A DNA stretch of 64,000 nt from Calothrix sp. PCC 7103 (lineage in GTDB: Bacteria > Cyanobacteriota > Cyanobacteriia > Cyanobacteriales > Nostocaceae), in NCBI RefSeq assembly GCF_000331305.1, contig NZ_KB217478.1:1270564-1334563 (forward strand), read 5' to 3'. The translations under genes were made by a program, and so were the position numbers. Shown piece after piece: positions 7,720 through 10,079 of this stretch. The first letter of the stretch is position 1; the number at the start of each line of letters is the position of its first letter. The notes beneath the pieces are model-generated. The model ran no database searches and was not told the DNA's origin. It saw only the letters and a program-made list of their open reading frames with translations.

Positions 7720-7752
7720 AGTCATGAAAATGTGTTAGATTAATCTAGCTTA

Positions 7753-7852
7753 TTCGGTTCTTACAGGCGCCAGTTGTAAGATAAAACGGGGAAAGTTCGG
7801 TGAAATTCCGGCACTGTCCCGCAGCTGTAAAGTCAGGATGCCCGCCGAAAGC
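7753..7852 (+). promoter_or_regulatory. Cobalamin (adenosylcobalamin-type) riboswitch
   Basis: The conserved core is legible: CGGGGAAAGTTCGGTGAAA, then TTCCGGCACTGTCCCGC, then AGTCAGGATGCCCGCC, preceded by a TCTTACAGG/TGTAAGA stem. This is the B12-box arrangement. It ends about 31 nt before the ATG of the DUF1636 gene, and the ribosome-binding site GAGG (near 7875) is close enough for translational control when cobalamin binds. Confidence 0.9.
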
Positions 7853-7883
7853 AGTAAAAATAGCTATAATCTACGAGGTATAG

Positions 7884-8288
7884 ATGACAGCACACACAAT
7901 TTTTGTTTGTACAACATGTGCGAGTACATGGGAAAACGGTAAGCGTGTAGGAGAAAGCGGTGGTGAAAAACTTTTAAAGCGCTTACAACAAGACAATCAA
8001 AATTCTCAAAACCAAGAAATTAAAATTCAAGCAGTAGAATGCATGAGTGCTTGTAATCGCTCATGTGTAATTTGCTTCGCTTCCAAAGACAAATATACAT
8101 ATTTATTCGGCGACATATCACCAGAACTATCCTCAACAGAAATAGCAGGAGTATTCGAGTGTGCCAATAAATACTACAACCACCCACAAGGATTATTACC
8201 GTGGGCAGAACGTCCCGACCCCCTCAAAAAAGGTGTCCTAGCACGCATCCCAGTCATCCCCGCAGCTATCCCCGTAGGTTGGGTGTAG
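7884..8288 (+). CDS. DUF1636 cysteine-rich, ferredoxin-like metal protein
   Basis: The 134-aa product has CTTC at residues 9-12, then ECMSACNRSCVICFAS about 40 residues on, and a C-terminal PWAERPDPLKKGVLARIP. This is DUF1636, a thioredoxin-fold ferredoxin-like family (presumed [2Fe-2S] or metal binding) that often sits with cobalamin biosynthesis or cobalt transport genes. Control by a cobalamin riboswitch directly upstream supports a role in cobalt or cobalamin metabolism. No other cobalamin gene is adjacent here. Confidence 0.8.
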   Translation: MTAHTIFVCTTCASTWENGKRVGESGGEKLLKRLQQDNQNSQNQEIKIQAVECMSACNRSCVICFASKDKYTYLFGDISPELSSTEIAGVFECANKYYNHPQGLLPWAERPDPLKKGVLARIPVIPAAIPVGWV

Positions 8289-9023
8289 CGCAGCGGAAGC
8301 AAACACATAATTAATTTGTAAATGATGACCTCGTTGCACCAAATCTTTGTAATGCGACTCCGTTAAATCAAGCGTCTCTTGATGACATCGGTTGCAGAAC
8401 ATAGTTTAATTTACGGCGCCAACTATCCCAGAACATGCTATACTACAATATGATTACGCTTTGAAATTATTAAGGAGACTGAACTGTCAGTAACTCAGGG
8501 CTAAAGCCACTGAGCTTGTAACTAGATTACAACTCATGCTTTAGTCATAGCTGACCAGATTCAGTGCCGCAAGGTACTACGTTATTGGCAAGTGTTCAAG
8601 TTCCTACTCCGGGATGCGTAGCTAGTCCCGTGACCCTAGAACCGAACGATTAAACAGATTCCCAATCGTTAAGTCAGTGTCGTTTGGATAGTACCGACCA
8701 ATAACATTATCAAAGCTAACATTACTTCGAGTAGGAAAGGCGATTCTCGGCATTACAGAGATATGGATAGACACTACTCCTCTGTTTATCCAACCCCGCA
8801 AGGGGAAGATTTAATGCGATTAAAATCGCTTGAGTTGTTTACCTAGGACGGGCTAAAGCCTCTGAGTTTCCCACTTACCATGTAATCTTATGAGTGAATT
8901 AATAGCAACACACCTTCACACAAGGCGCCTTAATTCTTGTTCAGTCTAGCTAATCTCGATTTTAGCTTAGTCCTCGAATAGGCATCTTGTGCAAAACAAG
9001 TAGCACATATTGAGGAAAAATAA
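8289..9023. other. 735-bp non-coding region holding the structured RNA and hairpin ends
   Basis: No protein gene was found. Near its 3' side GGGCTAAAGCC (8850-8860) repeats the hairpin seen at 8498-8508, each followed by CTGAG, so similar hairpins bracket the structured RNA as in IS200/IS605-like elements. A dyad GCGATT/AATCGC lies at 8816-8829. The last 150 bp before rsgA are AT-rich with no obvious site beyond GAGG. Confidence 0.5.
8470..8830 (+). ncRNA. Large structured RNA, probable orphan HEARO/omega RNA (IscB/IsrB type)
   Basis: A dense set of perfect helices is present: GTCAG 8486-8490 with CTGAC 8551-8555; CTCAG 8494-8498 with CTGAG 8510-8514; TTGTAA 8516-8521 with TTACAA 8527-8532; a GCAA tetraloop hairpin at 8562-8577; GTTATTGG 8581-8588 with CCAATAAC 8698-8705; CCTACTC 8603-8609 with GAGTAGG 8729-8735; CGGGA 8610-8614 with TCCCG 8626-8630; AACGATT 8645-8651 with AATCGTT 8664-8670; GGATAGAC 8765-8772 with GTTTATCC 8784-8791; CCCC-GCAA-GGGG 8794-8805. 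Size, complexity and cyanobacterial host fit HEARO RNAs, the guides of IscB/IsrB nucleases. No such gene follows, so it would be an orphan. Family identity is inferred; the structure itself is directly visible. Confidence 0.6.
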
Positions 9024-10079
9024 ATGTACTTGAATTCTTTAGGCTGGAGTAACTTTTTTAATTCCAGCTTTGAACCCTTTCGTGTACAAGGATTTACAGT
9101 AGGTAGGGTAGCAATTGAGCATAGAAATACTTACGTTGTTTTAACTGAACAGGGAGAAGTATCAGCAGAAATAACAGGTAAACTGCGACATCAAGCTTTG
9201 CAACGTCAAGACTTTCCATCAGTAGGAGATTGGGTAGTTATTCGTACACGAGACTTCCAACAAGCAACCATTCACGAAATATTGCCAAGATTTAGCAAGT
9301 TTTCTCGTAAAACGGTTGGAGGCAAAACCGACGAACAAATAGTTGCAGCGAACGTTAATACTGTTTTTCTAGTATCTGGGTTGGATGGAGACTTTAATAT
9401 TAGAAGAATTGAACGTTATTTAATTCTTGCTTGGGAAAGTGGCGCCAACCCGGTTATAGTTTTAAACAAAGCAGATTTGTGCAATAACCTTGAACAGCGT
9501 TTAGTAGAAATAGAATCTGTTGCTTTGGGTGTACCAATACTTGTTTTAAGTGCGGCACATAATCAAGGTATTGATGCTTTAAAAACCTATTTACAACCAG
9601 GTAAAACTGTTGCGCTGCTTGGGTCTTCGGGTGTGGGTAAATCTACCATTACTAATCAACTAATGGGTGAAACAGTTCAAGCTGTACAATCTGTACGTCA
9701 GGATGATAGTAGAGGAAGGCACACCACAACTCATCGAGAGTTAATATTACTACCAACAGGAGGGGTAATTATAGATACCCCAGGAATGCGGGAAATACAG
9801 TTATGGACAGGTGATGAAGGTTTGCAGTCTACATTTGCTGACATTGAAATTATCGCGCAACAGTGCCGCTTCCGTAATTGCCAACACGCTCATGAACCTG
9901 GTTGTGCGGTACAGGAAGCTTTGCAGTCAGGTAAACTTGAGGCACCGAGGTTTTCAAGTTATCAAAAGTTACAGAGGGAGCTTGGTTATTTGGAGCGTAA
10001 ACAAGACCAAAGCTCATATTTAGCAGAAAAGGAACGGTGGAAGAAAATTACTAAATCTATGCGAAAGCATAAAAAGTGA
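9024..10079 (+). CDS. rsgA: Ribosome small-subunit-dependent GTPase A
   Basis: This 351-aa protein has an N-terminal OB-like domain, then a circularly permuted GTPase: the NKAD (G4) motif near residue 148 comes before the P-loop GSSGVGKST near 200, followed by the G3 element [10 protein letters not shown]-terminal zinc site reads [14 protein letters not shown]. This order is diagnostic for RsgA (YjeQ), which checks late 30S subunit assembly and is stimulated by the ribosome. GAGG lies a few bases before the ATG. It is convergent with the CheA gene; a perfect GC-rich hairpin (10121-10148) separates the ends. Confidence 0.93.

Follow-up and report, generated by a model that had tools for sequence, protein, structure and literature searches.

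What is a guide-RNA gene doing at a locus that lacks a nuclease gene? Within a window of 64,000 nucleotides (the whole stretch of DNA analysed here; C7:1270564-1334563 of the 11.6-Mb genome of Calothrix sp. PCC 7103), an initial annotation had recognised an orphan HEARO/omega-like RNA and proposed that it is a non-autonomous, transposable guide RNA, which may have a nuclease partner at another locus in the genome or may serve another use. Here we examine this RNA through its ends, its relatives, its insertion sites, and its potential partners. Features are given in window coordinates:

8470..8485 (+), putative 16-nt guide in the host flank directly 5' of the core, with the same sequence in four congeners whose site is empty
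8486..8889 (+), whole mini-element of 404 bp without a protein gene, delimited by the empty site in four congeners
8486..8725 (+), HEARO/omegaRNA core (RF02033, 120.5 bits)
8498..8517 (+), left-end GGGCTAAAGCC repeat copy, from a repeat search
8726..8807 (+), extra 3' domain of type B, found at IscB-less HEARO loci only, from a profile scan
8729..8734 (+), pseudoknot P1, 5' strand, from covariation
8774..8779 (+), pseudoknot P1, 3' strand, from covariation
8765..8773 (+), pseudoknot P2, 5' strand, from covariation
8783..8791 (+), pseudoknot P2, 3' strand, from covariation
8806..8889 (+), right end, common to IscB elements of the same genome, holding the second GGGCTAAAGCC copy (8850-8869)
8890..8893 (+), ATGA, presumed TAM, directly 3' of the guide where the site is empty
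8890..8949 (+), 19-codon ORF starting at the ATG of the motif, from the sequence and the empty sites

Core RNA, element ends, and possible partners

The assignment to the HEARO RNAs is borne out by the Rfam covariance model RF02033, which matched 8486-8725 (+) at 120.5 bits (E 2.4e-24; gathering score 83 bits) over model positions 1-211 of 211, and none of the genome's RRXRR (IscB) matches fell inside the window. The initial annotation had named a weak covariance score and a lack of relatives near IscB genes as grounds for abandoning the idea; the opposite was seen, both in this score and in the 49 of 145 surveyed HEARO loci at which the core is followed by a full IscB gene. The predicted fold of the 404-nt element (-116.4 kcal/mol, z -3.54) was equalled by none of 100 shuffles, and 31 inverted-repeat pairs of at least 6 nt each in 8470-8900, counted without a chance control, agree with the many helices described. 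The matching motif reported at both ends was likewise recovered, both GGGCTAAAGCC copies lying within a 20-nt direct repeat (8498-8517/8850-8869, 90% identical). Conservation does not extend to every helix that had been listed: only in the window copy is the 9-bp pairing 8601-8609/8729-8737 perfect and complete; it amounts to 6-7 nt in the two nearest relatives, has no match longer than 7 nt in the remaining 22 type B sequences, and was rejected as a conserved long-range helix. A search of 8290-9030 for sigma-70 consensus promoters returned none. Further upstream, a cobalamin riboswitch (RF00174, window 7738-7863, 49.7 bits) precedes a 134-aa ORF (7884-8288).

With a query of 1,817 bases spanning the site, the same genome and six congeners were searched. 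Four of the six (G002, G004, G005, and G006) contain an exact empty site in which the left flank abuts the right flank, the junction reading ...TTAAGGAGACTGAACT directly followed by ATGAGTGAATT..., while in G001 and G003 the flanks matched partially or separately. The same empty site is present in four named records, which are not independent because at least one of them is G002's own genome. Insertion occurred without target duplication, and the boundary is ambiguous by one T (8485 or 8889). As in IS200/IS605 mini-elements, the subterminal hairpins are common to gene-carrying elements. The extent originally given, 8470-8870, misses the final 19 bases and includes the guide, the ends being 8486 and 8889; transposability had been proposed, but where exactly the element ends, its start-codon target, and the conserved 3' domain confined to IscB-less loci had escaped notice. 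As four of the six congeners have the site unoccupied, the window copy most likely entered after the split of its host lineage from theirs.

IscB guides are 16 nt long. Inspection of the sequence 5' of 8486 as a guide, recommended at the outset, revealed that 8470-8485 directly precedes ATGAGT in the four empty sites, and from this anatomy we deduce a putative guide 5' of the core whose target lies beside a presumed TAM. ATGA came next in each of the first eight right ends inspected. The window's ATGAGT agrees with the NTGA given as the TAM of IsrB in PMC9581776. When the genome was searched for the guide plus ATGA with up to three mismatches, the occupied site (two mismatches) and six places with three mismatches were retrieved, compared with 12 matches for a reversed-guide control; as these are only three-mismatch places, and fewer than the control's, no intact second target remains in the assembly within this search.

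The 19-codon ORF at 8890-8949 was cut off by the insertion from AAGGAG at 8472-8477. It lies 5' of an RsgA-like gene, AAGGAG precedes it in the relatives' empty sites, and its frame is preserved in four relatives as judged by eye; it may be a leader peptide. The protein encoded behind the element (9024-10079), which we take to be RsgA-like, is 94-96% identical to Calothrix and Dulcicalothrix records. Seven plasmid records had partial matches covering 9-44% of the element.

The genome contains seven HEARO matches, two of them below the gathering score. At C7:4978161-4978559 lies a 393-bp sibling mini-element that is 79% identical to the window copy, a more worn one (L161) measures 322 bp, and a congener carries one of 432 bp (L095); the HEARO score, the empty sites of the four congeners, and the sibling together uphold the description as a non-autonomous, transposable guide RNA. 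The genome search for IscB that had been suggested yielded seven RRXRR matches, all outside the window, and behind three of the HEARO matches there is an RRXRR gene whose open frame spans 434-441 codons. Resident IscBs lie at C7:7746644-7747171 and C10:226937-227464. Among the IscB-like proteins inspected (L156, L157, and L162), L156 aligned to solved IscB structures through RuvC and HNH and contains DPGAKNTG, a VEH...N...CN stretch, and THWIDA, presumably catalytic. The IscBs inspected carry HNH, as opposed to the HNH-less partner of an IsrB system, and seven ORFs adjoining HEARO cores in other genomes contain an HNH-like stretch by eye. The window RNA has no RRXRR/IscB (HNH) gene of its own and would be associated with one in trans at most; it is likely used in this way by IscB made elsewhere in the genome. 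ISC transposons are reported to occur primarily in Cyanobacteria (PMC6452270).

Six Y1_Tnp matches were found in the genome, and element ends around all six were at chance level (best E 0.028). Two RRXRR genes have no adjacent HEARO match (G000:C7:3847540-3848058, L011/L162, 474 codons; C12:207758-208273, L012, 415 codons) and, as nucleases for which no guide RNA is recognised, are the reverse of the orphan RNA. Elsewhere (C7:189006-189094; L165 1501-1589, minus strand), ATGA comes after a right end that has no adjacent HEARO match and is a remnant of another element.

The extra 3' domain of IscB-less loci

The survey comprised 138 loci of 20 relatives, taken from the strongest HEARO matches listed (41 genomes), plus the seven of the same genome; some listed loci, several of them at contig ends, were omitted. 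IscB was called by tblastn with three IscB-like proteins of the Calothrix genome, matches below 300 residues being scored as partial, and "without IscB" means none within the approximately 2 kb fetched per locus. The 145 loci divide into 84 without IscB, 12 with partial IscB, and 49 with full IscB; IscB-less loci are therefore the majority in a sample that leans to strong HEARO scores. Many copies occupy different sites within one genome. In all 49 full-IscB loci, iscB starts closely 3' of the core end; IscB RNAs are described as belonging to the 5' side (PMC12558985).

At the corresponding position, the window copy carries other sequence. A blastn search with 8726-8806 among the 145 loci matched only L095, L159, and L203, all IscB-less. 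Domain profiles seeded from IscB-less loci distinguished a type B (30 loci including the window copy) and a type A (27 loci), all among the 84; one or the other is present in 57 and neither in 27. At E up to 1, on both strands of the whole fetched stretches, neither profile matched any of the 61 loci with IscB sequence, and the domain was accordingly rejected as a scrap of iscB or a distal part of IscB elements. An Rfam search of 13 loci (E up to 0.01) returned HEARO only, plus one tRNA.

The initial annotation had suspected crossing pairs near 8756-8791. These resolve into P1 and P2, which together form a real H-type pseudoknot, judged from covariation. In an alignment of 25 of the 30 type B sequences, 94.9% of cells pair, compared with 32-57% for six slid versions of the helices, and 10 of the 15 pairs vary on both sides, a number matched by 2 of 500 shuffles. 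The pairing percentage, the both-side-changed cells, and the covariation score were equalled by none of the 500, although related sequences may beat shuffles without structure and most rows stem from G026 and G029. The number of further pair types was equalled by 307 of 500 shuffles and so gives no support. By eye, the rows of L187 and L198 appear misaligned in P1, which lowers its score. RNAalifold alone predicted P2 and not P1, which crosses it. Many of the pairs are G-U, which favours a structure that acts as RNA. Covariation shows the type B domain to be under selection as structure. For type A (16 of 27 sequences), 33 pairs were predicted, 19 of which vary on both sides.

Other hairpin-rich 3' stretches, alike within groups, occur among IscB-less loci with neither domain (L167, L169, L171, L173, and L174 of G040; L179 of G033; L184 of G038; L216-L220 of G030). 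Further types of 3' domain beyond A and B may exist.

Across the phylum (292 genomes, with E cut-offs of 1e-12 for HEARO and 1e-4 for the other model searches), type B was present in at least 11 genomes, type A in at least 24, HEARO in at least 38, and RRXRR in at least 45, all of which are lower bounds because only 7-15 candidates were scored per genome. Type A or B occurred in at least 25 genomes, and RRXRR in 22 of these 25 compared with 45 of 292 overall; G007, G182, and G227 possess well-kept type A copies with no RRXRR match. The count for type A includes some matches outside mini-elements, since type A was also found without HEARO or at introns. In the Calothrix genome, four type-A-like matches without an adjacent HEARO (one on C5, two on C10, and one on C12) have similar surroundings:

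L282 2045-2138 (C5), type-A-like stretch
L283 2007-2100 (C10), type-A-like stretch
L284 1995-2088 (-) (C10), type-A-like stretch
L285 2047-2172 (C12), type-A-like stretch

No Rfam family was assigned to these four stretches, which may represent an undescribed RNA present on both plasmids and chromosome. Type A matches also adjoin or overlap matches to group II introns:

L286 1864-2113, group II intron match
L288 1966-2137 (-), group II intron match
L289 1989-2199 (-), group II intron match
L292 1805-2143 (-), group II intron match

By eye, L286 retains traces of the end of a HEARO core and of a right end, its intron apparently lying within a HEARO mini-element.

Insertion sites, start codons, and right ends

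The 2009 paper on the discovery of HEARO reportedly mentions insertion before ATGA or GTGA. We assembled 59 right-end junctions, 22 through a right-end profile and 37 through the point at which same-genome copies stop matching. Junctions with no RTGA at the end (L177, L221, and L235) were excluded, as were unclear or different ends (including L188, L202, L205, L226, L229, L232, L234, L237, and L238), the copies of G030 and G025, and several of G024. The motif was ATGA at 43 junctions, GTGA at 15, and CTGA at 1, a tally partly made by choice because ends were excluded and the nearest RTGA was chosen by script; the ATGA of the window copy was established from the empty site.

In rebuilt empty sites, the motif opens an ORF of at least 60 codons at 33 of 59 junctions, compared with 20% of 5,843 background RTGA, and is the first in-frame start of such an ORF at 19 of 59 (background 4.2%). 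A second ORF caller placed exact starts at 18 of the 59 (53 of 1,676 background sites, 3.2%); the other junctions lie inside a same-strand ORF (17), inside an opposite ORF (4), no more than 60 bases upstream of a start (4), or in intergenic DNA (16). About three quarters of background RTGA sites fall inside ORFs; outside ORFs, exact starts account for 18 of 38 junctions versus 53 of 437 background sites (12%). The next gene downstream is co-directional at 14 of the 16 intergenic junctions, a figure with no background for comparison, and the next gene upstream of these 16 and the four near-start junctions has no orientation bias (9 same, 10 opposite, 1 unknown).

Families were scanned for 20 of the 33 motif-opened ORFs (NCBIfam 10, Pfam 10). 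NCBIfam alignments begin at residue 1-6 for clpP, sufB, purT, sqdB, a ParD antitoxin, an ssuB-like gene, and trhO (sqdB and the ssuB-like gene scoring below curated cut-offs), the remainder being a nicotinate phosphoribosyltransferase aligned from residue 22, one ORF with weak matches, and one with none. Pfam alignments begin at residues 5, 9, 14, and 16 for four ORFs (Metallophos, CheB, CPP1-like, and DUF3318); another four match from residue 36 or later, or weakly, and two have no family. From alignments so near residue 1 it follows that some junctions scored as inside a same-strand ORF (sufB, purT, and sqdB) are starts that the caller had extended.

GGAG, GAGG, or AGGA stands 4-15 bases before the motif in 29 of 59 right ends compared with 7% of 1,500 background ATGA, a comparison limited by the relatedness of the right ends to one another. 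Such a Shine-Dalgarno-like 4-mer is present at 9 of the 18 exact-start junctions and absent from 30 of 59 right ends overall; the window right end, which reads ATGTAA there, has none. Given that the guide is read from the flank, insertion at a start codon would borrow the host promoter.

Proposed explanation and its rivals

We propose that 8486-8889 is a non-autonomous mini-transposon of the IS200/IS605 (ISC) type with an omegaRNA but without a protein gene, and we consider this explanation, trans use included, to be probably correct as a whole. The mini-element would be moved by a Y1 transposase encoded elsewhere. An upstream host promoter would transcribe through the flank guide (8470-8485) into the omegaRNA, which IscB from another element would bind; the loaded IscB would cut chromosome copies with the empty site (guide target plus ATGAGT), and repair from the occupied copy would restore or spread the element. 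Many cyanobacteria carry several chromosome copies, which makes such homing plausible. The extra 3' domain probably replaces the cis supply from iscB mRNA, for example through 3'-end stability or IscB capture. Insertion at a start codon would provide the host promoter for the guide; in many copies, a purine-rich right end would return a ribosome-binding site to the split gene. Counting against this explanation are the search for a sigma-70 consensus promoter that found none, the three genomes with well-kept type A copies and no RRXRR match, the chance-level ends around the Y1 matches, the type-A-like matches without HEARO, the 27 IscB-less loci with neither domain, and the window right end that lacks a Shine-Dalgarno-like 4-mer.

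Decay in place of an IscB element after internal deletion of its gene, leaving an RNA without function, is quite improbable. The core and right end do match those of IscB elements, the same genome harbours the more worn 322-bp copy, and three genomes retain copies without any RRXRR match; yet four of the six congeners lack the insertion, and what replaces iscB is a covarying domain common to IscB-less copies rather than gene scrap, so that an IscB element losing its gene after insertion would need to have gained a domain. It is also unlikely that the RNA now serves a non-IscB partner or a host function, such as regulation of the gene behind it, as exaptation would have it. The 18 exact starts and the co-directional gene downstream of 14 of 16 intergenic junctions (the latter without background) would fit such a role, as would the persistence of type A copies in three genomes without RRXRR and the type-A-like RNAs without HEARO. 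The window copy is recent, however, many copies occupy varied sites in one genome, and the HEARO core is retained; with recent insertion and scattered sites, a single conserved host role does not emerge.

The start-codon preference could itself be a by-product of the ATGA/GTGA motif and of selection against insertion within genes, with neither promoter gain nor gene sparing, and this we judge a considerable possibility, if a somewhat doubtful one. The motif is a start codon plus A, most background RTGA lies inside ORFs, and right ends lacking a Shine-Dalgarno-like 4-mer are in a slight majority, half of the exact starts included. Against this stand the excess of exact starts outside ORFs over the 12% background and the enrichment of such 4-mers over the 7% background, though the right ends are related. 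Returning to RNA-only mobility, it is quite possible, and we hold it tentatively, that nuclease-free omegaRNA elements in general are RNA-only mobile lineages that have 3' domains of their own (of at least two kinds), use IscB made elsewhere, and settle at start codons with a host promoter, many of them returning a ribosome-binding site.

Relation to known systems and significance

The window element resembles the HEARO RNA/IscB omegaRNA (RF02033) in its full-length core match and in a core start that coincides with the left end, and differs in lacking a nuclease gene and in carrying the covarying 8726-8807, absent from the 211-position model and from IscB-linked loci. PATEs, which we take to be the IS200/IS605-derived MITE-like elements that resemble it, are likewise short and geneless, with the ends of a parent element and no target duplication, whereas the window element includes a complete guide-RNA gene. 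OmegaRNAs that stand alone and work with IscB have been reported (PMC9581776, citing Altae-Tran 2021) and, like the window RNA, have no adjacent nuclease and an IscB elsewhere in the genome; compared through that citing paper, the window element adds an empty site, ends, a 3' domain of IscB-less loci only, and start-codon targeting. The TnpB gene drive of IS200/IS605 elements reported on plasmids (PMC11870625) parallels the proposed model in that the guide is recorded from the insertion site and element-free copies are cut; it differs in that TnpB acts in cis, and TnpB RNA lies at the 3' side whereas IscB RNA lies at the 5' side (PMC12558985). A 343-nt HEARO RNA of Limnospira, longer than the Rfam model, has been used (PMC12286853), and expression of HEARO RNA in cyanobacteria is touched on, without detail, in PMC8400943. 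Among the titles and beginnings of abstracts that were listed, neither an IscB-less-only 3' domain nor start-codon insertion of IscB/HEARO was mentioned, and parts of both findings may already be in print.

What extends beyond the known standalone omegaRNAs is the IscB-less-only 3' domain together with the start-codon habit. The orphan guide RNA becomes a testable class, that of RNA-only transposons that may exploit a Cas9-ancestor nuclease made elsewhere, and a domain found only in nuclease-free elements offers a way to learn what a guide RNA requires to work in trans, which is useful for IscB tools. The start-codon habit would, if true, explain both how an element whose guide lies beyond its own 5' end is transcribed and how the host survives its position before genes like clpP.
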